The notes beneath the pieces were generated by a model. It was not told the DNA's origin. It worked only from the letters and a program-made list of their open reading frames with translations, and did no database searches. Both the position numbers and the translations under genes were made by a program. DNA of 64,000 nucleotides. Origin: Lophium mytilinum (Eukaryota; Ascomycota; Dothideomycetes; Mytilinidiales; Mytilinidiaceae). Of this stretch, positions 2-63,047 are shown piece after piece (positions within the stretch are counted from its first letter, which is position 1; every line of letters starts with the position of its first letter). The DNA lies in the NCBI GenBank assembly GCA_010093605.1, contig MU004196.1, forward strand, positions 150,255 through 214,254. Reading direction: 5' to 3'.

Positions 2-118
2 ACGTTCAAGACCGCGATGGGGTTCTTCGATCCGGCCCGGAGGAGCGGTAGTTCTGGTAGTGCGGGTAGTGAGCGGAAGGTCTCCCGGGGTGGTGAGAGT
101 GAGCGCAGCAGCAAGTGA
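2..118 (+). CDS. 3' end of an unidentified gene (partial)
   Basis: An open frame enters from the left edge and stops with TGA at 116-118. It encodes a 38-residue tail that begins TFKTAMGFFDPARR and ends in a Ser/Gly/Arg/Glu-rich stretch (SGSSGSAGSERKVSRGG). Codon use is GC-rich and regular, unlike the repeat DNA that follows. The tail looks like a polar cytoplasmic C-terminus of a larger protein. No family can be assigned from this fragment, and it could in principle be non-coding. Confidence 0.4.
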   Translation, partial: TFKTAMGFFDPARRSGSSGSAGSERKVSRGGESERSSK

Positions 119-237
119 GCTGCAGCGAGATCTGGAGGCCTTAGAGATAGCTGGCCTGAGTTGAATACGAATCCTGAATCCTGTGCATCTAATCCCAGAC
201 TGAGTGAGATGGAAGACTGCATTTACGCTTGCCTACC

Positions 238-1810
238 ACCGTTTGGGGCCCTCCGATATGGCATGAAATCTTTAAACCCGACGGTTTCCCCAAGCCTGAT
301 AGCCCGCTAGGCCACCTCAAACGGTATCAAACTGTTGTGCCATTGCGGTGTGATTTGGGGATTTGGGGATAGCTGGCCTGAATTGGATACAAATGCCGTA
401 TACCCGAGCCTGGACTATGTGAATCAGTGACTGCATTTACGCTTGCCTACCACCGTTTGAGGTCCTCTGATAAGGCATCAAAATCTTGAAACCGACGGTT
501 TTCCCAATCCTAATAGTTCTCCGGGCCACCTCAGACGGTGCCAAACCAGCCTACCATAAGATTATGTATACCTGCCCAGCACTATTTAAGGTCCTACATT
601 GAATACGAATGGCATATATCTAAACCTAGAGTGTGTGAATTAAGTGACTGCTTTACGCTTGCCCACCACCGTTTAAAGTCCTCTAGCGGCGCGAAAAATA
701 AGAGATACGATGTCAAAGTTCGGGTGGTTCAGATTGCATTGGGTTGATTTGGACGGGTTTGGGTGGTGTTTGGTACCGTCTGAAGTCCTTTGGCGATGCC
801 AAAACTTGAGGGATACGATGTCAAATTTCGAGTAGTTCAGATTGCACTGGCTTAGTTTAGGCGGGTTTGGGAGGTGGTTGATACCGTTTGAAGTCCTCTA
901 GCAGTGCGAAAAAATGAGCGATAGGATGTCAAAGTTCGGGTCGTTCAGATTGCATTGGTTTGATTTGAGCGGGTTTGGGTGGTGATTGATACCGTCTGAA
1001 GTCCCTTAGCGGTGTGAGAAAATGAGAGAGAGGATGTCAAGGTTCGGGTTGTTCAGATTGCATTGGGTTAATTTAGACCGGTTTGGGGGGTGGTTGATAC
1101 CGTCTGAAGTCCTTTACTAGCCTACATTTTCATATTTCCCGAATCTTGCAAACTTACTATCAGATGATGTACACCTGCTTGGTACCGTTTGAAGTCCTCT
1201 GATACACTTTCAAAAACGCGGAAACTCTCATTTGGACACTCCCAATAACCCGCTGGGCCACGTCAAACGGCATCAAACTGCACTAATATTTTTGTATTCG
1301 GTAAATCTCACTCACCTACTCTAGGATCATGTACATCTGCTCAGCACCGTCTGAAGTGCTCTGACGCTCTCTCAAAAGCTCACCTCCGGTGTGAACACTC
1401 CAAATAGCCCGCCGGGCCACCTCAACGGCATTAAAATAGACTGCTACTGTGTTTCTACTACACAACGTGAATTAAGTTGTGGACTTTAGTAAAGATTACA
1501 CGCCTATTCTGTGATCATGTGCACCTGCTTGACACCGTCTGAAGCCCGCTAGCATACTCTCAAACCTCGAGACTTCCGATTTGGACGACGAGAATAGCTC
1601 TCTGGGGCACCTCAGACGATATCAAATGGGCCTACCGCTTTACGTCTGCTGCAAAGCGTGATTTGGGTCGAGGCTTCAGCGAAGCCCACACGCTTACCAT
1701 AGATCATGTACATCTGCTCAGCACCGTCCGAAGTCCGCTGGCATACTTCCAAAACCTCGAAACCTCCGGTTTGCGCAACCGCAATAGCTCTCTAGGCCAC
1801 CTCAAACGGT
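238..1810. repeat. Six diverged hairpin (palindromic) repeat units of 83-88 bp
   Basis: Units lie at about 238-325, 452-539, 1184-1270, 1346-1428, 1534-1620 and 1723-1810. Each starts with a form of ACCGTTTGAGGTCCTCTGA and ends with a form of GGGCCACCTCAAACGGT, the reverse complement of its start, so each unit could fold into a stem of about 12-16 bp. Units are joined by partly conserved linkers such as GATCATGTACATCTGCTCAG and CATTTACGCTTGCC. No coding capacity was found. The structure resembles a small MITE-like or satellite-like hairpin that has spread by local duplication. Copies differ by many substitutions, so the block is old or has been mutated. Confidence 0.75.
668..1120. repeat. 108-bp tandem repeat, about four copies
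   Basis: The word GATGTCAAAGTTCGGG (with variants) starts at 709, 817, 925 and 1033, giving an exact spacing of 108 bp three times. Each unit also holds a form of ACCGTCTGAAGTCCT, AGCGGTGCGAAAAATGAGAG, GTTCAGATTGCATTGG and GGGTTTGGGTGGTG. The unit contains only the left arm of the neighbouring hairpin family, so this array may have arisen by unequal exchange between hairpin units. No gene is visible in it. Confidence 0.85.
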
Positions 1811-1950
1811 ACTAAACACGTCTGCAACTTCATCCCTGCTGCACAGCGTAATTTGGCGCGAAGGCTTGGGGTGGTGGACTTGGCTCCTGAACTGGATACG
1901 AATGCCGTGCCCCTAAATCCAATGATAGATGGTTTTACTCCTAGTTGCTC

Positions 1951-3345
1951 GATGCCACCGTAGGGGGTGGCCCAGCTAGCAGGTGGCTGGGCTGTCAAAA
2001 GAACGTCCAATATCTGTTGCGTTAAGCTTTACGTTGTTTTCTTCCTTTGGCATGCTTGAAAGATGAGTGACTACGGGATATAGTAGTGGAAGGCTTCGCT
2101 TTTGATCGATCGACGCCGCCGTAAGAGGAGGCCCAGCTAGTAGGCAGCTGGGCAGTCAAAACGATGTCTAATATCTGCTGCGTTGAGCTTCATGTTGTGT
2201 TTTTCCTTTTGCTTGCTTGAAAGATGAGTGACTGCGAGATGCAGTAATGGAAGGCTTCGTTCTTGATCGATCGACGCCACCATAAGGGGTGGCCCAGCTA
2301 GTGGGCAGCTGGGTTGTCAAAAGGATGTCTAGAGTCTGTCACGTTGAGCTTTACATCGGTTTCTTCCCTTTGCTTACTTGAGAGCAGTGTTAGGAGTAGT
2401 CCAGGTAACGCCTACCTAGTCCGTTAAAAGGATGTTCAGATCCTGATGCAAGGAACCTTGTCTTAGTTTCTTCGTTCTGCATGCTTGATACTGCTGCTAG
2501 GAGGGCCCTATTTAGCACGTAGCTAGGAAGTCAAAAGGATGTCTAATATCTACTGCGTTACGTTGTATATTGGTTTTTTCCTTTTGGATGCTCGATAGCG
2601 CTGTATGGAGAGCCCTAACTAGCACGTAGCTGAACGGTCAGAAAGATCTTTAATATCTATTGCGTTGAGCTGTACATCATTTTCTTCCTTTTGCATGCTC
2701 GATAGCACTGTACGGAGAGCCCTAGCTAGTACGTGTTGAATTCGTCCAAATAGAGCCTGATTCCTACTGTCGCGACCTTTACGTTAGTCGCAAGGGGTGT
2801 TTAGATATGTGTCCTGGTACTGCACTCCACGGAATCTAGTCTTGATCAATCGACGACACCGTAAGGGGTGGTCCAGCTAGTAGACTTTTAGTCGGACAAA
2901 AGGGTGGCCTAATTCCCAGGCAGTGACTTTTACGTTAGTTTCGAGGAGTGCTTAGATATATATCTTAGTACTGCACTGTACTGGTTCTACTCTTGATTAC
3001 TTAAAATCACTGTCAGGGGTGGCCCAGCTATCAGGCGTTCACATGCTCATAAGATAGCATGATATACGCTACAGCGACCTTTACACACTTTCCGGAATTT
3101 TGAGCTTGAGCACCCGGATATACAGCTTTACAGGCTTCAGTCTTGATCGGTCGACACCACCGTGAGGAGCGGTCTAGCTAGTAGGTGTCTAGTCAGTCAA
3201 AAGGTAGCCAAATATATACTGCAGCAATCTTAACATTGTATTTAGAGTTCCAACTTTGGGGGCCCTGATATACCACTGCACAGGTTCCGCTCTTGCTCGG
3301 TCGATACCACCGTTAGGGGTGGCCGAGCTAGCAGGTGTGCAATGA
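1951..3345. repeat. Tandem array with three successive periods (161, 107 and 150 bp)
   Basis: A second repeat family has the core CGACACCACCGTAAGGGG followed by TGGCCCAGCTAGTAGG. Anchor words fall at 1971, 2132 and 2293 (period 161), then a shortened form at 2505, 2612 and 2719 (period 107, word GCCCTAACTAGCACGTAGCT), then at 2872, 3023, 3173 and 3323 (period 150 or 151). A shared tail carries GTCAAAAGGATGTCTAAT and TTTACGTT-like words. Short open frames inside are chance products. The stretch between this array and the EFM6-like gene (about 3346-3446) holds nothing recognisable. Confidence 0.8.
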
Positions 3346-35585: not shown

Positions 35586-36114
35586 CAGCGTGGTTAGTAA
35601 ACCGGCCAATCCTCAATCGGATTGACAGACGGTTTATCAATATCACTTATACTTAGTCCAATCGGATCAATCCTATAGCCAATGAAATTTCGAGCGTAGA
35701 TTAATCCGATTAGTTTAATTAGTAGTAGATAAATTAGTGGGTGCAACGTAAGAGTACTATAGTAGTAAGAATCTAGAGGCGCAGAAGACCTAAAAATTCG
35801 CGTTAGACGTAATTTAACCTCTAGTAGTTAACTCTTGTTATCTATTTTAGCCTATCTTATTATAGTGTTATGCTAAAGGGGGGCCAGGGCCGTAGTAAAT
35901 AAGGCTAGTAATACCTAGGTACCTGTTATTAGGGCGCGCTAACCCGCTAATATTATATCTTACTTATATAGGCTAAGCGCTGTTGTAATAAAATAGTTTA
36001 AACAGTTTAATCTAAAAATCTAATTAATCTAATCTATTAATCTTCATTCTATATATAACAACCTAATCAAACTGCTACCTAGTTGAGCCGGCCGCCGGTT
36101 TAGTAACCACGCTG
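35586..36114. mobile_element. Non-autonomous hAT-like miniature transposon (MITE), 529 bp
   Basis: The element has terminal inverted repeats starting CAGCGTGGTTAGTAAACCGG on the left and its near-perfect inverse on the right (20 of 21 bases agree). The same 7 bases, CCAAGAC, flank it on both sides (35579-35585 and 36115-36121) as a target-site duplication. CAG-type ends and a 7-8 bp duplication fit the hAT superfamily; the duplication is one base short of the usual 8. The interior is very AT-rich, contains no transposase frame, and has many TA and TAATC/GATTA words, consistent with C-to-T (RIP-like) mutation. It sits in the 3' coding region of the NLR gene and supplies its present stop codon. 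Confidence 0.85.
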
Positions 36115-39100
36115 CCAAGACTCGACACCACTCGAAGATGCTGCTATAGCAATCGAACTCGGGTCATCGTTGAGACGCATGCAGGTCTCTAAGTCCCAGA
36201 GCTCTCTACTTTCCGATCTGCACTCAAATATAATCTTCCGGTCGTCGCTCGAAAAGTCTAAAGATCGAACAGTGTAGTGTCGAGAAACTTCGAGTGTCTT
36301 TATTAGTGAGCCTGACTGGACGTCCCATATCCGTATCATCCAAAAAGATCCGGTTGCGATCTTCTGGTCGTCGCTAGAAAACACTGCCGACTCAACAAGG
36401 TATTTGTCTCCACAGAGCGTATGTAGTAGCGAGCCTGACCCAGCGTCCCATATCCGTGCAGTCCCATCGTCAGATCCCGAGACAATCTTCTGGCCGTCAT
36501 GAGAGAATGCTACTAACATGATTACCGCAGATTGGGCTATAGAGGTTTGCGAGTTTAGCCCTACATCCCACAGCCGCACGTTACTATCGCTGGATCCAGA
36601 TACGACACTCTGGCCATCAGGTGACAACGCTACCGAAATCACCTCCCCTGAGTTGTCTCTAAAGGTTTGTAGTAGCGAATCTGACGCAACGTCCCACACC
36701 CGTACTCCCTCGTGGCCATGTGCGGATACAATCTTTTGGCTGTCATTCGAGAAAGCTACTAAACATTTACCACACCATGAGTATGACTCGCCGGGCATTT
36801 CGAACTTCCATATTTGCGAGTATAACGTGGCGTCCCATACCCGTACGGTTCCATCCTCCGAGCCGGACGCAATCACCCGGCTGTCTCTTGAAAACGCTAC
36901 CGAAGTGACCGGGCATGAGTGAATGAGCGTTTGTAGCAGCTTCAGCGTGTGTGGTTGTACATCCCATACCCGTAGAGTGTGATCTTGGGATCCGGATACG
37001 ATTTTACCACCGTCACCCGAGAAGGCGACTGAATTGACCCCGTATCGATGGCTTTCAAGCGTCTGCGATAGCCGGCTTATGAGAAGCGAGCTCGACCCTA
37101 TATCCCATAATCGCAGAGGGCCATCTTCGGACACGGACACGATCTTCTGGCCATCATGTGAGAATGCCACTGAGCTAATAGGAGTTGGGTGTTCGAGTGT
37201 CTGTAGTAGCAAGCCTGACCTTGCGTCCCATACCCGTGCGATTTTATCATAAGATCCAGACACAATCTTCTGGCTGTCTCCAGAAAACGCTACGGAACTG
37301 ACGATGTTTGAGTGACCTTCCAGCGTCTGTAGCAGGGAGGCGGATCGTGCATCCCATATTCGCAACGTGTCATCAGCAGACAAAATCTTCTGGCTGTCGG
37401 GCGAGAAAGCTACGGAAGAGACGCTACCTACGTGGCCTTCGAGCGTCTGCAATAGTGAATCCCAGTTTTCTGGGACCGATGGCTTAAGCTTGATCCATGA
37501 TGGAATCTGGTCTTCGAAAAGTACCCTTATTATGCTATGAAATGGGGTGAATTTCAGAGCAGCACAATACGTCTGAAGGGGCGCTTGCTCGATCATAGAA
37601 TGGTACGTCATACTGAACCGATATGCGTCGTAGACCAATTTCATCAATAGTTGGTGGTCAAAGATCTAAGACTAGATTAGAAAGTCAGTTACATAGATCA
37701 CGGAAAGAATACTCACCTGGACTAAGTTATGTAAATCGAATAGCATCAAACCACTTTTCTCCATTGTCCCCAATAGACTGAGCGCTTCAAACCAGTGAAG
37801 GAGATGTTCCTTAAGGAACGTATACACTACCTCAAGAAGAGAAGGATCCACGACGCTCTTTTGAAAGTGGTGGACCCAATATGAGCAAGCATACTGCAGC
37901 TCTGGGGGAATACACTCCTCAACCTTGCTTCGATCAGCTTCCTCTGCAAGGATTCCTGGCAAGCGTAGATTGCAAATGTCGTTCTTCAAACTCTTAGACA
38001 TGATCGCAAGGCAACCCCTTGTTAAATCTGTATGTGTCCTTTTACCATCAACCCAGAACCGAGGATCGCCGGCACGTCGATTCTTATCGAGAAGGAAGTC
38101 GCGGAAGGATGGGTGGACTAGCTGAGGAGCGACTTCGGTGAGGTTGGACACGTCCAAGACTGATCCGAGTTTATCCAATGTGATCTTCACTTTGTCTTCG
38201 AAGTCAATCTCCTTGTCCTCCTCGCCATCCTCGTCATTCTTACCACCCTCGCCATGTTCACCATCATCGCCGTCGTCACCATCGTCGCCGTCATCGCCAT
38301 CTTCGTCGTCCTGGTCATCCTGGTAGTCGTCACCATCCTCCTCGTCATCGCCATGGGTTTTGTCCTCCTCTGCTCTACCTCTTCTTTCCCAACCCCCACT
38401 TGCTTGAAGCAAATAGGACAAGTGTCTTACGCGGAGTGACTCAAACAAAACGACAATAGTTCCCACGAGTGTTCGAAACCTTTCCAATATCTCTGGTTGA
38501 TTCTCTTCGTCGCAATCACCCAATATTGACTGCCTTAAGACCTGCATATACATCTTATCCAGCTGGGCCGTCAGTGAGTTACCCCAGGAGCTCTTTTTCA
38601 GCAGCTTAGACAACTGATCTTTCGGAAGAAAATTCGTGTCCCCAATGAATCTGCACGCAGTCGCAGCATAGATGAACAGGCCATTGGCTTTCCTCACAAG
38701 TATTGTCAGGTCTTTGGTCTCTGGCCACTTTCCGCGGACACGACGCCTTTCATGGACTAGCGCGAGCTCATGTTGTAGAAAAGCTAGAATGTCCTGTTTT
38801 GTTTCTTTCGGGAACATGCTGTGAAGGGCCACATCACGGTGTGCCGAATTCTCCAAGGATTCAATTCCTAGTTCGATTGGCTGCTCAGGCCTGCTCGTGA
38901 CGAAGAATCGTAGCTTGACGTTGCCGACTGGTTTTGATTTCCCAAAAAGTCGAAGGATCAATCGAACATCATCCTGATTGTCGCATTCATCTAGCGCGTC
39001 GATAACGAAGATGATGACCATTGGAGTGTCGATTTTGGATAATGGCTCCAGGATGAATTGGTCCCATTGGTCTTCCGTCCGTTCGCTGATAGGATGATCG

Positions 39101-40735
39101 TTTATCGCTTTGTGAATGTGTTCGGCGATGTTAGGATCGTAATAGTAAAGCTGGAATGCAAGAGTCGTCACAAATTTTGAGGCATCGGCGAGAGCGCCCT
39201 TGCCTTTCGAAAAGAAAAAACTGGCTCCAAGTTGTCCCTTTTCTGAGACTCGGCGTGCCACAGTGCGGGCGATGGTCGATTTTCCTGTTCCTGCCATTCC
39301 ACTCAGCCAGAAGATGTGCGAGCCGTCAGTCGCAGCGCTCCATTCGTAAATCAAGCGGAGCATACTGGCTCGCGTATTCTCCAGACATAGTGGCTCATGC
39401 TGAAGCCTATTGGAGTTGAAGGCGGCACCTTCGGCACGCGGCAGCTTTTGCAAAGTTTTCTCTCGTTCTTCACGGATTGAGTGCTGCTTGAGTGCCTGGG
39501 AAATAGATGAGTATGACTAGGTAAAGAACTAGAACGGAATTTTACATCAATCATGATTTCCAGATTTGATGTTTTGACGTTGATGGCCATAATCGTATGG
39601 CCATCAGTTACATGCAAATCTTTTCCAATGCTGTGTTCAAGAGTTTCTACCTCTGCGAGCATAGCTTTCCAGTCATCGGCGAGCACAACATCTCTGAAGT
39701 AGCGAGATAACTTTCCCCGTGTACAATGGTAGGCGAGTCGAATTTGGTATTCTAGTATCTGGGAATATAGCTTTATTGTCTTGTATTCGAAGGCGACTTC
39801 AAGTTGTTGTACTTCACTTTCGCTGATGAAAAATACATCATTTTTCATGGAATACTAAGGAGTGTATGGGTAACATGCCTTTGTGGTGATGTTGGAGATG
39901 TGTATATGTTTCCCTCTCTGTAAGTGATCTCTATGGTCCTGAACCGTTTGAGCAGATTGGAAATATATTCGAGACCATCAAGCGCGGCAACATCCTGGGT
40001 AACTGGATTTAGAAGCAACTATACAGCTTGCTCAGTAGGTGAAGTTGTTCTTCTATAACGATCAAGTAGGGTCACTGGAAGCAGGACCGAGACTCCAGCC
40101 CACGCGAGCGCTGCGTGTGGTTCTAAACTGGCCGCAGCGGTAATGAGGTCCTTGGCAACGATAATTGCCCTGGTAATTTCGTCGACTTTCTTTTTGGCAA
40201 CGATGGTGAGTCTGGATCGAGCTGCTTCCATGCCTTCGAGTTTCACGTCAACAAGCTTTCCGAGTTGCATTTCTCGTTCTATACCTTGTATAGGTAACTC
40301 CTGTGTCTTTGTAGATGGATCACCACCAAGAGCATCTAGAGACATAATTAGAGTATCAGTGGAACGCAAAGGAGCAGACAATTGGGTAAATCCTGCGCAA
40401 ACTAACCTGGCTGAGTTGAACCTGGGAAGGATGGTGGGTTTTGCAGAAATTTGTCATAACCGTCCATAAGCTTCTTCTTGTCCTTGTCATTCAGAAGCAG
40501 ATTATAAGCCTCGTCCCACAGGTCTTTTAGGCCCAGGTCTTCTGCTCCTGTAGGCGAGGCTGCAGTTTCTCTATCTAGCCCATCTTTCGGCTCATCTACA
40601 AGCTTTTGAGAGTTGTCAGCAATTTAGCTAAGTTGCAGGCTCATAGCTATCGCTCACAGCGCTACCAGGCTGCACTGAAGTCTTTGCGGATCTCCACCTG
40701 GATCCAAGGCGTTTTGTTCGGATCCATGGCACCAT
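36100..40735 (-). CDS. NLR-type receptor: NWD-NACHT-WD40 STAND protein, 3' end cut off by a transposon
   Basis: Seven exons: 40735-40658, 40602-40407, 40335-40076, 40018-39914, 39854-39546, 39495-37717 and 37665-36100, about 1430 residues, all phases consistent. The N-terminal NWD region shows AALAWAGVSVLLPLLLNP and GLEYISNLLKRF, the first split by a 57-bp intron. NACHT: Walker A GMAGTGKSTIARTVA (about 382), Walker B VIFVIDALDECD. A region near 693-747 is a long Asp/Glu/Gly insert coded by an imperfect trinucleotide repeat. About ten WD40 units follow from residue 960 (for example VAFSGDSQKIVSGS ... RVWD). Such proteins act in non-self recognition (heterokaryon incompatibility) in fungi. The fourth intron needs a GG donor in place of GT, and the last propeller strand is lost to the MITE, so function is doubtful. 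Confidence 0.8.
38210..38370. repeat. Trinucleotide repeat coding an acidic tract in the NLR
   Basis: Imperfect CATCGTCGCCGTCATC-type triplets on the plus strand encode DDGDDGDDGDDG and related Asp/Glu/Gly runs on the minus strand. The tract lies between the NACHT core and the WD40 propeller, in the region where the helical NACHT-associated domain is expected. Confidence 0.8.
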
Positions 40736-50459: not shown

Positions 50460-50904
50460 CGTCTCTAGAAACTACAGGTACATTGTAAAGGTCATCGCCA
50501 TGGAAATTAGACTACCATTTGACTAACGGGAGACATGCTAACTAGGCCACTCCTAACAGTGATGTCGAGAGAGCAAGAGTAAGCTAGGGTAATCGTATAT
50601 CCATGGCCCAGTGCTGTACTCACAAGACATCATGTAGATCAGACCCTGAGCGAGACTAACCGAATACTTCTAACTTTTCGAAACTACATTTCCAGTACAC
50701 AAGTCTAGGCACGCCGCCCTCCAACATCTTCCAGGAATATGACAATGAGCTGAAGCACCCCAAACAGCGGCCAACCAGGCCAACCATAAGCGCATGCAAC
50801 CTCCCCGATTCAAAGTCTCAAGTTCTTTACATATCCTCGGAAATTTGATAACCCACTAGAGCACCCCAAACAGTGGCGAGCCAACAGCAAAAACGCTCCC
50901 AAAC
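50460..50904. other. Intergenic region containing two hairpin-family arms
   Basis: About 0.45 kb downstream of the phosphotransferase gene. It carries the direct repeat described at 50752-50879; nothing else is recognised. Confidence 0.35.
50752..50879. repeat. Two copies of the left-end hairpin arm, 106 bp apart
   Basis: GAAGCACCCCAAACAGCGG (from 50753) and TAGAGCACCCCAAACAGTGG (from 50858) are near repeats. The second agrees at 17 of 21 positions with the reverse complement of the left-end arm CCACCGTTTGAAGTCCTCTA. Spacing of 106 bp is close to the 107-108 bp periods of the left-end arrays. Confidence 0.55.
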
Positions 50905-52149
50905 CTACTCCTCTCCCAGCCCCCCCTTCCATGCTTCCAGCAGCGCCTCATAAAACGCTGGCGTTCCCTCGTTCTCCCACAAATCCATCCCAACCGCCAA
51001 TTCTTGACACCGCCTCTCCCCCAGCACCACGGACAACACCCCATCCAATCCCTTCGCCTTCTCCGCCTCCGCGACATACCCCACATATTCCGCTCTCAGC
51101 GCCGCCTTAGGCTCGCTATCCCGATCCATCCTCACCTCCCAGCTCTGCAGCTCTGGGTTCCCCCTCGCCGTCCGCCCCGCCTGGACCAGCACGTCCGGAA
51201 AGTCCGGCAGAAATAACGGCAAACGCACTAGCTCCCAGGGCACCGTCGTGCTCTGTTCCCAGTCGACCACCGCGGTGATCTTGGTAGTATTCGCGGCGTC
51301 GACAAGGACGTTATGGTGGGAGAAGTCGCCGTGGACTAGCGGAAACGGACCGGGGCGGAGAGGCATAGACGGAAGAAGTTCTTCCAGCGCTTTCGGAAAA
51401 TTAAGAGCGGAGGCGACAAGGGGTTCTACAAGATCTGGTTCCTGGCGTTCGCAGACGGCGCGGAGGTTGCTTTCCGTGCGGTTAAAGGGCGTGTGGCGAC
51501 ACCAAGCTGCGAAGTAGTCGGCTGCGGTGTCAAACGGCCCGCCGAGATACGGGATGGGACCGATATCATACGTACCGTCGTCGAGCTGGATGATAGAGCC
51601 AATCTTCGGGAAGCGGACGGAGGCGATCTCTGCGTGGAGTTCAGCGAAGGCGGGGAAGAAGGAGGCGCGGTACTCCCTAGGGACTTGTCCGCCGCGGCCT
51701 AGCCCGCCAAAGGCGTCGATTGCGTTCATCCCGTATAAGAATTCCATGAGCATGAAGGCGGCGCCTACGGGGCTATTGAGCGCATTGGGCTCGTAGGCGT
51801 ACACTTGCGGGACGCGGATTGAGGTCTGCTCGGCGAGTAGCCGCATTGTGGCTACCTCGCTGTGGAAACGGAGTTCCTGGTCTGTTGACTCTGGCTCGCC
51901 GCCACTACGCCGCAGACGGACGACCCATTTGGTGCTGTCGCTGAAGTTGAGGAGGCGGAGGACGTTGCGGCCGCCGGCATTGCACTCGTTTGCTAGCTGG
52001 CAGGCGATGGCGGTTTCTTGATCTCCGAGCATTTCCTGCTTCTTGACGAGGGCGTAGTCGACGAGGGCGGGCCAGTTGACATCGCCCCACTCCCGCTCCC
52101 AGTCGATGTTGGTGTCCTTCCAAGCGAAGTCGCTTGAGTCGGCGGTCAT
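50905..52149 (-). CDS. Aminoglycoside-phosphotransferase-fold kinase (APH family)
   Basis: A single exon of 414 residues. The N-lobe has a lysine-containing strand context (KWVVRLRR) and a helix (LRFHSEVATMRLLAEQTSI) and PQVYAYEP. The hinge is FMLMEFLYGM. The catalytic loop is LVHGDFSHHNVLVD with the expected Asp and Asn, and the metal-binding motif follows as TAVVDWEQSTTVPWEL. This is the APH/choline-kinase-like fold that phosphorylates small molecules; fungi have large families with unknown substrates. No signal peptide. A (GTG)n microsatellite lies just upstream of the start. The last 340 coding bases are G-rich on the coding strand, in contrast to the C-rich middle. Specific substrate cannot be inferred. 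Confidence 0.85.
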   Translation of the reverse strand: MTADSSDFAWKDTNIDWEREWGDVNWPALVDYALVKKQEMLGDQETAIACQLANECNAGGRNVLRLLNFSDSTKWVVRLRRSGGEPESTDQELRFHSEVATMRLLAEQTSIRVPQVYAYEPNALNSPVGAAFMLMEFLYGMNAIDAFGGLGRGGQVPREYRASFFPAFAELHAEIASVRFPKIGSIIQLDDGTYDIGPIPYLGGPFDTAADYFAAWCRHTPFNRTESNLRAVCERQEPDLVEPLVASALNFPKALEELLPSMPLRPGPFPLVHGDFSHHNVLVDAANTTKITAVVDWEQSTTVPWELVRLPLFLPDFPDVLVQAGRTARGNPELQSWEVRMDRDSEPKAALRAEYVGYVAEAEKAKGLDGVLSVVLGERRCQELAVGMDLWENEGTPAFYEALLEAWKGGLGEE

Positions 52150-52664
52150 CTTCTGGAGGAGCGGGAAGGACTGGACAGGGCTTGTGGTGGTGTGGTGGTG
52201 GTGGTGGTGGTGATAGGAGGAGGTGTAGGGGTAAAGAGGGTGTTGATAAAATCTTATATGAGAGAAGCAAGATGAACAATGGTTTTGTGAACGACATTGG
52301 TCGATGGAAGAGATTCACTTGGGATCTTAAAGATCTCCATGCTGAAGTGCCCTGCAAAAAGCGTGGGCTCATAAACTACGGATTGAGTTGCTCCGGCGCA
52401 TCGAAAACACTGCGATAACATGTAAAGCCCCCGTGAGCTTAAATAAGAGATACCCTACTTGCTGGAACACGGCCTGCTTGCCTCTGTTTGTGGCGCTTCA
52501 GGACGTCATCATAACCTGGAAGAGATGGTAAGGCGGCGTGCTCAGATCCGTGTCGTCGTACTGGACAGTTCTGCACATCGTTGTAACCTCATTGTAGCTT
52601 GTACACAATGTGAATATTGCACCTCTTGTATACTTTAATCAGCTTGTTAAAGCACAATGAGTAC
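52150..52664. other. Intergenic: promoter of the APH-fold gene
   Basis: About 0.5 kb between two minus-strand genes. A (GTG)n run sits at 52184-52212, within the likely leader of the APH-fold gene. AT-rich words (TGTACACAATGTG, TATACTTTAATC) lie near the end of the upstream gene. Nothing else is visible. Confidence 0.35.
52184..52212. repeat. (GTG)n microsatellite
   Basis: An almost pure GTG run on the plus strand (CAC on the transcribed strand of the adjacent gene), 35 bp upstream of its ATG. Confidence 0.85.
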
Positions 52665-53186
52665 CTAAAGTGCAAATATGCAGACACCTAGGCCCTGACA
52701 CTCCGGGTGATCCTGTTCGCATTGGCTGAAGTCATAATTGCAGTCTTGGGCGCCGGTGATAATGCACATCCAGGGTTCGTGAACATGACAGCTAACGGGA
52801 TCAACAATATTGGAATCCCGAGGCTTCTTGATCTGGCAGTTGGCGGGGTTGCTGATAGGGCAGTGAACAGGCTCGCTGATATTGCAGAATCTGGCGTTAA
52901 CGATGGCGCAGTTCTTGGGCTTATGGACATCGCAGCGCGTCGAGTCGGTGATGATACCTCCTTGGGGAGCCCTGATATCGCAGCCGATGGCGTCGATAAT
53001 AGTACAGTCCTCAGGATCCAAGATAGTACAGAATTGAGGATTGATAATGTGGCAACCAGTGGGGTTGGTAAGAAGCCAGCCTTGTGGGGCGATGATTTGG
53101 CCGCCTCTGCGTACGGTGATAATGCGGTAGGTAGGAGCAGTGTTTCTTTGGGCATTATGTAGGTTGACTTCTTGAGGAACGACCAT
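52665..53186 (-). CDS. Cysteine octapeptide-repeat protein (CxIxxPxx), novel
   Basis: A single exon of 173 residues starting MVVPQEVNLH. From residue 29 to 148 it consists of fifteen consecutive 8-residue units without a single gap. Unit position 1 is Cys in eleven units (45, 53, 61, 69, 85, 93, 101, 109, 117, 133, 141; the next Cys, 149, keeps the register); position 3 is always I, L or V; position 6 is Pro in ten. Examples: CHIINPQF, CTILDPED, CDVHKPKN, CNISEPVH, CPISNPAN, CHVHEPWM. The C-terminal tail has four more cysteines (QCEQDHPECQGLGVC). There is no signal peptide and no Lys-Arg processing site between units. I know no named family with this repeat. A short beta-solenoid with a cysteine ladder, a metal-binding protein or a peptide precursor are conceivable; none is shown. 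Confidence 0.65.
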   Translation of the reverse strand: MVVPQEVNLHNAQRNTAPTYRIITVRRGGQIIAPQGWLLTNPTGCHIINPQFCTILDPEDCTIIDAIGCDIRAPQGGIITDSTRCDVHKPKNCAIVNARFCNISEPVHCPISNPANCQIKKPRDSNIVDPVSCHVHEPWMCIITGAQDCNYDFSQCEQDHPECQGLGVCIFAL

Positions 53187-54030
53187 GGTGAATGATGTGT
53201 AAATGGCTATCGGTTCATGGACGGAATAATGAATTTAAATTTGCAGAAGAGGACGCGGCTGAAGCTTTTGAACTGGCATGAGAAGGTATTCTTTGCTTGG
53301 AAGGAAAGACACGTACGAGGAATTCGTCGACCCAGGGAAGTTGTAAGACACACTTCCGTGGTCTTATAACGTCTTACCCTTTCTAGCAAGACGAGGAGCA
53401 TGGTAGGCATACAATTTGAGGGAGCGGTGCCCGGAGCAGCTGAAGTCCAATGGATCGAGCCTTCGCTACCAGCCTTCCAGCTGCGCTTGATACTTTTGAG
53501 CGACGTCTCTGCTGCGACCTAGGTATAAGGCCTACAATGTACCAGAACTAATGTAGAATCTAGTCATATGGTTGTACATACCGAACTAGCGTGACATCTC
53601 GAGATTGATTGCAACCGGAGATCTCCTTTTTGGAAACATTGATGATCATCTCCTCTCCCAGTAGACTCCAGACACGCTATCGCAGTTCCAATAAAAACAA
53701 TATACAAAAAGAAGGGCGGAGCCAGCTACTTCCTAACCTCCTTTGACACTCATCGTGTTAGTTGCAATATATCCAAGTTGAAATCGGTATTTCGCAATGA
53801 CCAGAACAACATCAGCTCCCAAAATATAAACTTACAGCGCTTCGAAGGCCATATTTATTTAGAATCCCCATATTCCTTTGCCAATACTACTTCAAGGTAT
53901 GTGCAGGTGGAGTGATATGCTCCATCCTTCCGATCTGTCCTTGAATCGACGCCATGTCCTCGATACCGTTCCCACGGTAAATCATGAGCTATTTCGATAT
54001 TGGTTATCCCCATCGTGAGTCCTACGATAC
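53187..54030. other. Intergenic: upstream of the octapeptide-repeat gene
   Basis: About 0.84 kb between two minus-strand genes. It is moderately AT-rich (ATATCCAAG, AAAATATAAAC words near 53760-53830). No coding or repeat structure is visible. Confidence 0.35.
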
Positions 54031-54529
54031 CTAGTCCTCCCTCTTCAAAATCTTCCTCAATGCCTCCTCATTCTCCGACGTCCTCTTAACCTTGCCTTCT
54101 TCAACAGGCTTATCCGGTTTATCCTTCGCAAACAGCGCTTCCTTCAGAATTCCAGTATCATCGACTTTCTCTAGCTGCCCGTGCCGACGCCTGGATTCAC
54201 GATACCAGCTGATCTGCCCTCCATCGGCTTCACGATGCTTTTGTGCATTGAGTTTCGCGGCGCGTATCGAGGTGCGGGAGTAGACGAAGAGAAGGCCGGC
54301 CATTGTCAGCGCGGCTAGGGGCGCCACGAGAGTCTGTTTTGATATCAGTCTCCTAATGCTTGGCGGTATAGAAGCTATCGACAGCGAGTCATAGCAGATT
54401 ATAGCAGATTGAGTCACTTACTCGTCCATTGATGAGACTCCTCCGTACAACTTTCTTAGCTCCTCCGGGAACGTTGGGGACTTCAGAGATGCCGTCTGCT
54501 GAGCGTGGTACTGACAGACGTCCTCCCAT
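54031..54529 (-). CDS. Small single-pass membrane protein, conserved-looking, unknown
   Basis: Two exons, 54529-54422 and 54333-54031, encode 136 residues; the 88-bp intron has a GTAAGT donor and closes in phase 0. The N-terminus (MGGRLSVPRSADGISEVPNV) is followed by a basic segment (KKVVRRSLINGR), a hydrophobic helix TLVAPLAALTMAGLLFVYSR spanning the splice site, and a charged C-terminal half with READGGQISWYRESRRRHGQ and KTSENEEALRKILKRED-like helix. This layout fits small mitochondrial or ER membrane proteins of fungi. No family is recognised. It is divergent from glutathione reductase across about 530 bp. Confidence 0.7.
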
Positions 54530-55057: not shown

Positions 55058-56665
55058 ATGAATTTCATCATACATAAAGTCACTGCTTCTGCCGTATCAG
55101 TCGCCGCATCGCCGCACTCCTCCACTTCCATCCTTCTGGCTTTCCGCGCTCCCTCGAAACTGGCCGCTCCACGCCTTGCATCGGTCTCCCGCCACTTCTC
55201 GTCGTCGCCGTCAATCATGGCGCCTATTCAGAAAGAGTGTGACTATCTGGTTATTGGGGGAGGAAGCGGGGGTATTGCATCTGCGCGACGAGCGGCAAAA
55301 CACGGTGCGAAGGTTATTGCGATTGAGAGTGCCCGCTTGGGAGGGACCTGCGTGAACGTCGGTTGTGTGCCCAAGAAAGTGACCTGGAACGCCGCGGCGA
55401 TAGCCGAGAACTTCAAGGACGCAAAAGCGTATGGGTTTGGCGGATTCGAAGAGCCTACTTTTGACTGGCCGTACTTCAAGAAGAAGCGTGATGCATATGT
55501 CAAAAGACTGAATGGCATCTACGCCAACAACCTCGGAAAGGACAAGATCGACACCCTGCATGGTCGCGCGAGCTTTGTGAGCAAGAACGAAGTCGAGGTG
55601 AAGCTCGATGACGGCACGAAGCAGACTATCAAGGCGAAGAATATCCTTATTGCGACGGGAGGCCGACCTACAGTTCCGGACATCCCCGGAAAGGAACTAT
55701 GCATCGACAGTGATGGCTTCTTCGACTTGGAGGAGCAGCCAAAGCGGATCGCAACCAGTGGTGCTGGCTACATTGGAGTGGAGATGTCTGGAATGCTACA
55801 CGCTCTTGGTTCTAAAGTCGATTTCTTCATTCGTGGAGACAAATTACTCAGGAGTTTCGATCCTCTGATTCAAGACACTGTCACGAAGGAGTACGAGCGA
55901 CAAGGCGTCAGCCTCCATAAGGGAGCCCAGATCACCAAGGTCGAGAAGCTAGACGACGGCTCGAAAAAGGTGTACTACAAAGAAGGTGACAAGGAGTCGA
56001 GCATCGAAGTCGATGTCGTTCTCTTCGCCGTCGGCCGAGTCCCAGAAATCGAGGATCTTCACCTCGACAAGCTTGGAATCAAGCTCAATGAAAAGAAGCA
56101 CATCATCGTGGACGACTACCAGAATACCAACGTCGAGAACATCTTCGCCCTGGGAGATGTCTGCGATCGTGGTTTCGAACTGACACCCGTAGCTATTGCG
56201 GCCGGCCGCCGTCTCAGTGAGAGACTCTTCGCTGGAAAGAAGGACGCCCATCTCGACTACAGCAACATCCCATCTGTCGTTTTCGCACACCCTGAAATTG
56301 GAAGCATCGGGTTGACCGAGCCACAAGCGCGAGAGAAATACGGCGATAGCCTCAAGATCTACAAGACCGAGTTCACAGCTATGTACTACGCCATGATGGA
56401 GCCGGAAGACAAGGGCCCTACCGCATACAAGATCATCTGCGAGGGCGTGAATGAAAGAGTCGTTGGATTGCATATCTTGGGCGTGGGAAGCAGCGAGATT
56501 CTACAGGGCTTTGGTGTTGCTATCAAGATGGGCGCGACGAAGGCGGATTTCGATAATTGCGTCGTAAGTTCGAAGAAATCAGAACTGATATGCTACAGCA
56601 GAGCTAATTTATTCATCCAGGCAATTCATCCCGTCTCAGCAGAGGAACTGGTCACCATGACCTAG
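55058..56665 (+). CDS. GLR1: Glutathione reductase, likely mitochondrial and cytosolic
   Basis: Two exons, 55058-56563 and 56621-56665, encode 516 residues. The FAD motif GGGSGG is at 67-72, the redox disulfide GGTCVNVGCVPKK has Cys 98 and Cys 103, the NADPH fold is GAGYIGVEMSGML, and a second FAD region is NIFALGDV. The active-site histidine lies in AIHPVSAEELVTM, encoded across the intron. The 57-bp intron is a multiple of three and free of stops, so an unspliced message would add 19 residues right before that motif. The first 53 residues are rich in Ser, Ala and basic residues with no acids, as in a mitochondrial presequence; a second ATG (residue 54, MAPIQKE) would give the cytosolic form, as in yeast Glr1. 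It reduces oxidised glutathione with NADPH. Confidence 0.94.
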   Translation: MNFIIHKVTASAVSVAASPHSSTSILLAFRAPSKLAAPRLASVSRHFSSSPSIMAPIQKECDYLVIGGGSGGIASARRAAKHGAKVIAIESARLGGTCVNVGCVPKKVTWNAAAIAENFKDAKAYGFGGFEEPTFDWPYFKKKRDAYVKRLNGIYANNLGKDKIDTLHGRASFVSKNEVEVKLDDGTKQTIKAKNILIATGGRPTVPDIPGKELCIDSDGFFDLEEQPKRIATSGAGYIGVEMSGMLHALGSKVDFFIRGDKLLRSFDPLIQDTVTKEYERQGVSLHKGAQITKVEKLDDGSKKVYYKEGDKESSIEVDVVLFAVGRVPEIEDLHLDKLGIKLNEKKHIIVDDYQNTNVENIFALGDVCDRGFELTPVAIAAGRRLSERLFAGKKDAHLDYSNIPSVVFAHPEIGSIGLTEPQAREKYGDSLKIYKTEFTAMYYAMMEPEDKGPTAYKIICEGVNERVVGLHILGVGSSEILQGFGVAIKMGATKADFDNCVVSSKKSELICYSRANLFIQAIHPVSAEELVTMT

Positions 56666-60163: not shown

Positions 60164-61070
60164 ATGGCGTCGTCGACAGGAGCTATGAAGACCAGAGGGC
60201 CTTCGCCTATGTATGTTCTCGACAGGCATTACTATGATGAAAACTGGCTAATAGAAGCGTAGAACGGTGGGGGGAAGGATCGTAAACCTCGTAAACCTGA
60301 AGGTGGGCTCGGAGGAGCGAATCTACCCCGTTAACGAGGATCTGCTCGCATATCACTCCGAATATTTCCGGGTCCTCTTCAAAGGCCCGTTTCGGGAAGC
60401 TAAGGAAAAGGTCTCTGCTTTGCCAGACATTCAGTGCCGAACCTTTGAGATCTTCCGGGATTGGTTGTGTTCGGGCCGGTTTCCATGGGAAGGGAGCATG
60501 ACCGGCTCAGTGCCAAATTTGTCTAAGCTTAGAGGGTACACCGCTGAGCTGGCCTTGTTGGCGGCCCACGAGCACAGGGCTGCGGAAGAAATAGCCTCAG
60601 ACGACGACATGGAAAACGTTGAAGAGTACGCCCTTGACCTCTTCATTCTGGCCGATACCTACGACATTCCTAGACTTCGCCTTGACGCTCTAATTTCCTT
60701 TTTCATCGTCTTCGCGCAAGACTCTACGAAGACCCCATCATCGAACAGCATTATGTTAGCCGTCGATTGTCTACCCGAGGGCTCGCCGATGCGTACCATC
60801 ATTTCCGACTTGTTCTGCGTCCGCGTTATGGGAGCCGATCTTCCAAAAGACTATTGCTTGAAACTCCCAGACGATTTCATGTTCGACGTCCTGAAGAAAA
60901 TGAAGGACATGCTTTTGTATTCGCTGTATCCGCAAACCTCTACGTACCAGTCTTTCGTGGCGGGGCACGCAGAGGTCCGATACATTCCCTGGAGGAGGAA
61001 ACCCATCAGACAAAATTCTCCAAGGATGCCACGACGGAAAAACCGCCGACCTCGCCTCAGGCCGAAATGA
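60164..61070 (+). CDS. BTB/POZ domain protein A
   Basis: Two exons, 60164-60210 and 60263-61070, encode 284 residues; the 52-bp intron (GTATGT ... GCTAATA ... GTAG) splits a phase-2 codon. The N-terminus is MASSTGAMKTRGPSPITVGG. The BTB fold shows VNLKVGSEERIYPVNEDLLA, YHSEYFRVLFKGPFREAKEK, LPDIQCRTFEIFRDWL and a helical end (LFILADTYDIPRLRLDALIS). The tail is basic (RRKPIRQNSPRMPRRKNRRP), which could be a nuclear signal. Fungi of this group have many such short BTB proteins of unknown role. It is a paralog of the next gene, with the same intron position just before the BTB fold. Confidence 0.85.
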
Positions 61071-61963: not shown

Positions 61964-63047
61964 ATGTTACCTCCAGGCGGCTTTGGAAAGCCTCGTATGC
62001 AAACTGAAGGCGGCTTTAAGATGCCGCCGGCCCCATCTGCTCTCGGGCCTGACCGGCGCAGTCTCACTTTCGGACAAGTTGCGCGCATGTCACCATCACC
62101 CGCTCCCACTCAGCCAACCCTCTCTATTGAAGCATCGAAGATGCCGGATGCGACGAGCGACTCAACCTCTGCCGAGGCGCAGAAGCCACAGCCGTCGGGA
62201 AAGCCAGACAAGGACAAGAATGAAGGATGCCCATCCTTCACGTAAGCTATCCAGCCTTGCGCTCGTACGCCACGTGTGGAAATAGTCTAAACAACAATCT
62301 AGGACAATGAGCGTGATGTTGGTGCAGGTGAAGGTCGGAGCAAAGGGACAAGGCTCTGGCTCACCGGTCGCCTACGGCGTCCACAGAGATCTCCTTGCGC
62401 ACCATTCTGGACAATTTCGAGATCTCTTCATAAAGGGAGCTGAAACGGGTGATGATGTGACGGTACTGTTACCGGACATCAGTACAAATACCTTCAATAT
62501 GTTCCTAGACTGGCTTTACTTCAATCGCTTCCCGTGGGACCCGCGCGGAGAGCTGACGACAGCGATCGATAACCCGTCTCTGGAGATCGACCTCGTGGAT
62601 CTCTATTACATGGGCGAGAAATACGACATCCCGAAGCTCCGTCGCGACGCTATCAGCCGCTTCTTCCTTCACTTCGCCAAGAACAATCGCAAGTGCGTTG
62701 CCCTGCCCACGATCAAGCACGCGTTCCGGACCCGCAACCTTACTGTACTTTCGCCCATGCTTTCGCTCATCATTGACATCTTTTGCGGCCGCATGGGCGC
62801 CGCCGTACTCGACGACGCACTCCCGGAACTGTTCATGTTCCGAGTTCTACTCCAGCTCCAGCGGACAATGCCACCACAACGCGACTTCGATGGAGCGGCG
62901 AAATTGGGACACCACATCTGCAAGTACCACGAGCACAAGAACCTGTTCGACAAGTGCGAATACGAAGGGACTCAGGCTCGACTTGATCCGTATAGGACTT
63001 TTGTTCGACTTCCAGCTTCTGATTCCGCAACCCGTGAAACTGCCTGA
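61964..63047 (+). CDS. BTB/POZ domain protein B
   Basis: Two exons, 61964-62241 and 62303-63047, encode 340 residues; the 61-bp intron splits a phase-2 Thr codon. The N-terminal 92 residues are disordered and Pro/Ser/Lys-rich (MLPPGGFGKPRMQTEGGFKM). The BTB fold follows: VMLVQVKVGAKGQG, AYGVHRDLLAHHSGQFRDLF, LPDISTNTFNMFLDWLYFNR, and YYMGEKYDIPKLRRDAISRF. The C-terminal helices resemble BTB protein A without its basic tail. The FPW motif after the BTB (FPWEG in A, FPWDP in B) and the intron position and phase are shared, pointing to tandem duplication. Function is unknown. Confidence 0.87.

Follow-up and report, generated by a model that had tools for sequence, protein, structure and literature searches.

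A Lophium mytilinum gene with fifteen in-register CxIxxPxx octads encodes a probable, hitherto undescribed form of beta-solenoid

An octad-repeat gene and its surroundings

Within the window (the whole 64-kb stretch of DNA analysed here), the open reading frame (ORF) list contains a single-exon frame at 52665..53186 on the minus strand that encodes a protein of 173 aa plus a stop codon. Its ATG occupies 53184-53186 and its stop 52665-52667, and the sequence around the start, CACCATGG (53183..53190, minus strand), is a favourable context for a eukaryotic start codon. The translation falls into four parts, given here with their minus-strand coordinates: an unrepeated N terminus (residues 1-20; 53127..53186), a possible degenerate unit 0 reading RIITVRRG (residues 21-28; 53103..53126), fifteen octads of the form CxIxxPxx (residues 29-148; 52743..53102) and a Cys-rich tail with C149, C156, C163 and C169 (residues 149-173; 52668..52742).

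Downstream on the same strand lies an ORF of the APH family by Pfam (50905-52149), bracketed by an imperfect 39-nt inverted repeat (74%; 50697-50735 and 52515-52553). As a candidate repeat family this inverted repeat was rejected: the 3′ flank of the octad gene (52430-52664) matches only itself in the genome. Upstream, a short ORF at 54031-54417 has only a sub-threshold Pfam match, and an ORF at 55058-56665, on the strand opposite the octad gene, matches the pyridine nucleotide-disulphide oxidoreductases and is taken as glutathione reductase.

Other features of the window include four close blocks of long-period tandem repeats at 668-2734 (periods 108, 190, 161 and 107) and two neighbouring plus-strand ORFs, at 60267-61070 and 62307-63047, with a BTB domain match in each. 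Reading by eye, we also noted a bZIP-like ORF and two adjacent minus-strand ORFs separated by a 24-base gap (36100-37647 and 37672-39453), one WD40-like and the other NLR-NTPase-like with an acidic stretch, which may be a single gene with an intron or a frame break in between.

Fifteen eight-residue units in exact register

A sequence-only reading of this DNA had described fifteen eight-residue units in exact register from residue 29 to 148, and this description is borne out with no gaps. From the N-terminal end, units 1-8 read GQIIAPQG, WLLTNPTG, CHIINPQF, CTILDPED, CTIIDAIG, CDIRAPQG, GIITDSTR and CDVHKPKN, and units 9-15 read CAIVNARF, CNISEPVH, CPISNPAN, CQIKKPRD, SNIVDPVS, CHVHEPWM and CIITGAQD. 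The protein contains 35 identities at a lag of eight residues, compared with 9.9 (SD 3.0, maximum 24) in 20,000 shuffles. In a scan at lags 3-40 of every stop-to-stop frame in the 64-kb window with 100 aa or more (161 frames), the octad frame supplied the top three periodicity z-scores (8.3, 7.7 and 7.3 at lags 24, 16 and 8); the next, 7.2 at lag 16, came from a frame antisense to it.

All 15 units have I, V or L at position 3, where the earlier reading placed an aliphatic residue, and proline is, as claimed, the usual residue at position 6 (11/15; the rest are A in three units and S in one). Cysteine at position 1 holds for 11 of the 15 units rather than for all, with G in the units starting at residues 29 and 77, W at 37 and S at 125. 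From residue 45 onward (13 units), the residue in place of a missing Cys is thus G or S, which agrees with a small buried position. The register may also extend beyond the fifteen units at both ends. RIITVRRG has an in-register Ile at position 3, with no in-register Cys or Pro, and since it fits the position-3 register the array may begin at residue 21, which would make eight 16-residue pairs. At the other end, C149 carries the octad Cys register into the tail, which we take as a possible end cap.

The same reading considered a peptide-precursor role less likely, and the sequence agrees: the protein contains only two dibasic pairs, at residues 26 and 120, so that such a role is disfavoured.

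Constraint at the level of the protein

The regular register had been attributed to selection on the protein rather than recent DNA duplication, on the grounds that the codons of the units have diverged. This argument stands up: pairs of units have an average nucleotide identity of 0.486, and Tandem Repeats Finder (minimum score 40, 21 rows in the window) reports no tandem array at the octad gene. Since 24 nt make up exactly eight codons, a DNA repeat of that length would yield an octad in whichever frame it is read, and we therefore compared the frames. Between units, pN/pS in the octad frame (0.693) is the lowest of the six; the runner-up, antisense frame 1 (0.771), contains four stops, and antisense frame 0, whose codons stand opposite those of the octad gene, reaches 0.915. 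Synonymous codon choice also ranks the octad frame best of six, at 9.3 bits, compared with -9.2 for antisense frame 0. Total codon score orders these two differently (17.8 for antisense frame 0, 9.7 for the octad frame). The antisense strand holds an open frame of 151 aa with a GTG start (52707..53162, plus strand), which is probably a by-product of the 24-nt register.

These comparisons bear on whether the locus might be a decayed 24-bp minisatellite left open by chance, or a young gene that is expressed but unconstrained. The region is open in three frames, over 151-173 aa, and the total codon score of the antisense frame is the higher one, as such an origin would allow. In its favour, too, no homolog appeared in the collections searched (see below), and a protein search ignoring introns found no second locus in the organism's own genome (43.2 Mb, 24 contigs) among the matches listed. 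A neutral star-decay model is, however, incompatible with three features of the array. It gives a pN/pS of 1.03 ± 0.15, and a single run in 400 came out as low as the array itself or lower (0.699 in this calculation); over the same 400 runs it places I, V or L at position 3 in at most 14 of 15 units, against 15 observed, and its column heterogeneity peaks at 0.030, below the observed 0.040. The counts of Cys at position 1 and Pro at position 6 (11 and 11) are within its reach (maxima 12 and 13, 400 runs). The model draws its consensus and divergence from the same data and assumes independent units, and is a rough test. The conserved residues further vary at synonymous third bases, with TGC in eight and TGT in three of the Cys codons and CCC in six, CCT in four and CCA in one of the Pro codons, which also argues against decay without selection. 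We regard an unconstrained origin as unlikely. Instead, these rough tests support constraint on the octad protein, at the protein level and in the sense frame.

Alternation between two kinds of unit

A further feature, absent from the sequence-only reading, is an apparent alternation of units, for which we compared odd-numbered units (1, 3, 5 and so on; A) with even-numbered ones (2, 4, 6 and so on; B). Position 4 reads IIITVSVT along the A units, all beta-branched or Ser, and TLRHSKH along the B units. Proline occupies position 6 in 4/8 A units compared with 7/7 B units (Fisher p 0.077). At positions 4-5, K, R, E or H accounts for 0/16 residues in A and 8/14 in B (p 5e-4, for a class picked after inspection); with Asp added the counts become 3/16 and 9/14 (p 0.024), and with Asp but without His 3/16 and 7/14 (p 0.12). 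Across whole units, K, R, E, D and H together make up 7/64 residues in A and 18/56 in B.

The alternation was spotted before it was tested, and tests of the A/B division give p = 0.12 for 15 units and every column and 0.025 when the 13 inner units are used. With a correction that covers residue classes and columns, p is 0.042; for columns 4-6, which were picked after inspection, it is 0.007. A three-unit period, also conceivable, gives p = 0.15 and 0.08. Under the A/B division, position 1 of the B series is unbroken Cys at residues 53, 69, 85, 101, 117, 133 and 149, the last in the tail, and the A series reads C45, C61, G77, C93, C109, S125 and C141. Together, these patterns are suggestive of a structural repeat of 16 residues, made of one A and one B octad. 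If so, residues 21-148 would comprise eight 16-residue coils, each running B then A.

Comparison with described repeat families

The sequence-only reading knew of no described family with this octad. CxIxxPxx was indeed not found, and the exact string CxIxxP occurs in none of 5.39 million open-licence papers; the claim is qualified by two partial likenesses, to Cornifin below threshold and to the coils of ice-nucleation proteins (INPs). A Pfam search with the octad protein returned only Cornifin, below its cut-off, and one chance match. On its sequence, the protein belongs to none of the families that we tested.

The Cornifin match (PF02389; E 2.4e-4) scores 21.7 bits, under the curated cut-off of 34.8 bits. 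Cornifin and the small proline-rich proteins resemble the octad protein in having an octad-compatible register of Cys and Pro, which could point to a flexible, crosslinked protein of the same kind. Alanine substitutions show what the profile responds to. For residues 29-141, E is 0.0011 unchanged and 3.5e-4 once Ala replaces the residue at position 3; for residues 45-141, E is 0.0046 unchanged, and the match is no longer listed once 8/9 of the position-6 prolines are set to Ala. The match thus depends on the in-register Pro and ignores the constant aliphatic position 3, the best-conserved one. In a six-frame Cornifin search of the organism's genome, moreover, the octad locus scores just E 1.67, and we consider a cornifin-like protein very improbable. 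Another Cornifin match in this genome, on contig C18, was rejected as a K/E/A/P-rich ORF without the octad Cys.

INPs offer a different comparison. Their 16-residue coils follow the consensus AGYGSTQTAGEESSLT, as given in PMC9418140, which on our reading may be seen as two similar octads. Both the bacterial InaZ type and the INpro of Mortierellaceae would resemble the octad protein in a possible 16-residue, two-octad layout (PMC12978214, PMC9418140). Such a layout, together with the beta-branched or Ser residues at position 4 of the A units, might suggest an ice-binding or ice-nucleating solenoid. The INP motifs TxT, SLT and YGS, however, occur 0, 0 and 0 times in the octad protein, which also has no match to the Pfam family Ice_nucleation (PF00818); a PF00818 search of the organism's genome gave two weak matches, neither at the octad locus. 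INPs have 23 or more repeats, whereas the octad protein has about eight inferred coils and a putative Cys/Ile core. An ice-related function therefore appears extremely unlikely, even with the weak plasmid records described below.

The start of the pentapeptide-repeat consensus also resembles CxI: the 2019 version, as quoted in PMC8145042, allows C first and has L or F third. The octad protein differs in its period (eight rather than five) and in its preference for I/V over L/F. Pentapeptide proteins (PF00805) are defined by eight or more five-residue repeats in a row with L/F third, and PF00805 has no match to the octad protein at E up to 10 and none at the octad locus among eight genome match rows. 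One of these rows (L009 997-1743, a 248-aa ORF) overlaps, in another frame, a 971-aa ORF (87-3002) with a run of LTDPR pentads, and may be a shadow of its 15-nt repeat.

Metallothioneins usually carry the motifs CC, CxC and CxxC, none of which occurs in the octad protein. This is relevant to a reading in which the position-1 cysteines form a thiolate ladder that holds Cu(I) or Zn for storage, buffering or sensing. The 173 aa of the protein include 15 Cys and 7 His, with seven of the cysteines at an exact 16-residue spacing, a composition that would suit such a role; the loss of Cys to G (residue 77) and to S (residue 125) within the array does not, nor does the lack of metallothionein motifs. 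We judge this metal-binding role quite unlikely, a view to which the TBCC comparison below adds.

Searches of other collections returned no convincing relative. NCBIfam gave one chance match (E 0.49), PADLOC one (E 0.019) and PHROGs none; PDB sequences gave four matches to the protein (best E 0.71) and none to the unit profile. Searches with the protein and the unit profile yielded 5 and 22 pattern stretches in viral contigs and 9 and 14 in the genome contigs of a prokaryotic collection, with 0 confirmed in either set. With tblastn (E up to 10), one phage record (E 0.1) and 15 plasmid records (best E 0.003) were found. Seven of the 15 plasmid records are from Cereibacter and are annotated as ice-nucleation or heme-utilization proteins, at E about 3. 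One phage and one plasmid record match the strand opposite to annotated genes and were treated as chance. These prokaryotic, phage, plasmid and viral collections have little bearing on fungi.

Predicted fold and a precedent for stacked cysteines

We ran AlphaFold on the single sequence, with no alignment, for the full protein and for residues 27-152. Both models place strands at steps of about eight residues, both with low confidence. The full-length model (mean pLDDT 45.2) has strands over residues 45-103. For residues 27-152 mean pLDDT is 53.8, reaching 74, 75 and 71 in three blocks spanning residues 37-66 and falling below 50 past about residue 112, so that the C-terminal third has no confident model. 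The second-best of five models averaged 34.9 for the full protein and 42.2 for residues 27-152. In the latter construct, 7 of the 11 listed strands fall exactly at octad positions 2-4, and the other four overlap them.

Foldseek searches with the predicted models mostly list right-handed beta-helices, including TBCC, pectate lyases and pentapeptide proteins, none significantly: 0/55 and 0/89 matches in the PDB and 0/259 among viral models reach E 0.001. TBCC (5cya_B) has the highest probability among the 50 matches listed in each PDB search (0.66, TM 0.43, E 1.3 in the first; 0.69, TM 0.55 on the query, E 1.4 in the second); by E-value, the top match of the first search is an adenovirus protein. 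The viral models include an ectromelia protein, annotated as a caspase 9 inhibitor, at probability 0.99 (TM 0.62, rmsd 2.3 over 95 columns, E 0.48); another match, at 0.82 (TM 0.58, E 0.63), is to an iridescent virus protein.

Sulfur atoms spaced 3.8-4.7 Å apart are too distant to form disulfides, and both TBCC and RP2 reside inside the cell. This is the spacing described for the stacked core cysteines of TBCC, and RP2 has a similar stack (PMC4539340). According to the same structural account, residues 158-242 of Leishmania TBCC wind into a three-sided helix with five coils, by our arithmetic 17 residues per coil, and the helix core holds stacks of four and two cysteines plus aliphatic residues (PMC4539340). 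The octad protein would resemble this TBCC/RP2/CAP type of beta-helix (the CARP domain) in its proposed core Cys stacks and in a similar coil length (~17 versus 16 residues). Of the precedents that we found for a regular cysteine stack within this type of fold, TBCC/RP2 comes closest. Since the TBCC prism is three-sided, the Foldseek match is no proof of two strands per coil. At the sequence level, the octad protein has no match to Pfam TBCC (PF07986) or CAP_C (PF08603) at E up to 10; the organism's own genome has one match to each, both away from the octad locus, and BLASTP gives no alignment between the octad protein and the genome's TBCC stretch.

The thin solenoid with a cysteine ladder that the sequence-only reading had proposed is therefore retained in part. 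A solenoid is the likeliest fold on these low-confidence models, and the protein probably folds into a thin coil, shaped like a ladder, whose core holds stacked cysteines. The choice between disulfides and metal that came with it is unsupported: given the stacked core cysteines of the TBCC structure, the octad protein requires neither. The passages of PMC4539340 that describe these stacks make no mention of metal, which further weighs against a thiolate ladder.

Stacked cysteines could also be oxidised, in a secreted disulfide-ladder solenoid or a small secreted effector. The beetle antifreeze protein is a disulfide-ladder solenoid, and the high Cys content of the octad protein, with four Cys in the tail, would fit one. 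Among fungal ice-nucleating solenoids, Cys residues are described near the solenoid ends (PMC12978214, PMC9418140), and disulfide caps have been proposed (PMC12978214, PMC13288671). In the octad protein, however, the number of cysteines is odd (15) and the N terminus has no signal-like hydrophobic core: Kyte-Doolittle windows of nine residues, starting at every third residue from 1 to 40, contain no hydrophobic segment at the N terminus, the top value (1.33) lying at residue 31, within the array. A secreted, oxidised form is accordingly improbable.

Proposed model and significance

We propose, with a probability of roughly 0.55, that the gene encodes a small intracellular beta-solenoid with two-octad A/B coils and a reduced Cys/Ile core that acts as a scaffold; we take it for a probable, hitherto undescribed form of beta-solenoid. 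Each octad would contribute a short strand, at about positions 2-4, and, with the help of Pro6, a turn, with an A and a B octad forming one 16-residue coil, about eight such coils spanning residues 21-148 and the Cys-rich tail serving as a cap. Ile3 and Cys1 would face the core, Ile3 as an aliphatic stack and Cys1 as one or two columns of buried cysteines in the reduced state, which would be comparable to the stacks in TBCC and RP2. The A units have beta-branched residues or Ser at position 4 and some Asp at position 5, and the B units are richer in Lys, Arg, Glu and His. Such a protein would most likely serve as a rigid scaffold for binding or self-association, with its A face paired with a second solenoid and its B face in contact with a partner. 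We infer the intracellular location, the core packing and the scaffold role.

A bolder and doubtful extension is that CxIxxPxx defines a solenoid class of its own, in which the unbroken stack of seven Cys and the second, interrupted one work jointly, either as a redox-locked rod or as a metal-binding thiolate wire, and not as inert packing.

If the proposed scaffold model is right, beta-solenoids would gain a very short, code-like repeat, with one strand per eight residues and two per coil, and a probably intracellular fungal protein would have seven cysteines at an exact 16-residue spacing. It would provide a compact test case for the way in which buried Cys stacks stabilise coils without disulfides or metal, as well as a simple scaffold for design. 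Should the octad gene be an orphan, it would show a 24-bp repeat turned into a constrained protein.
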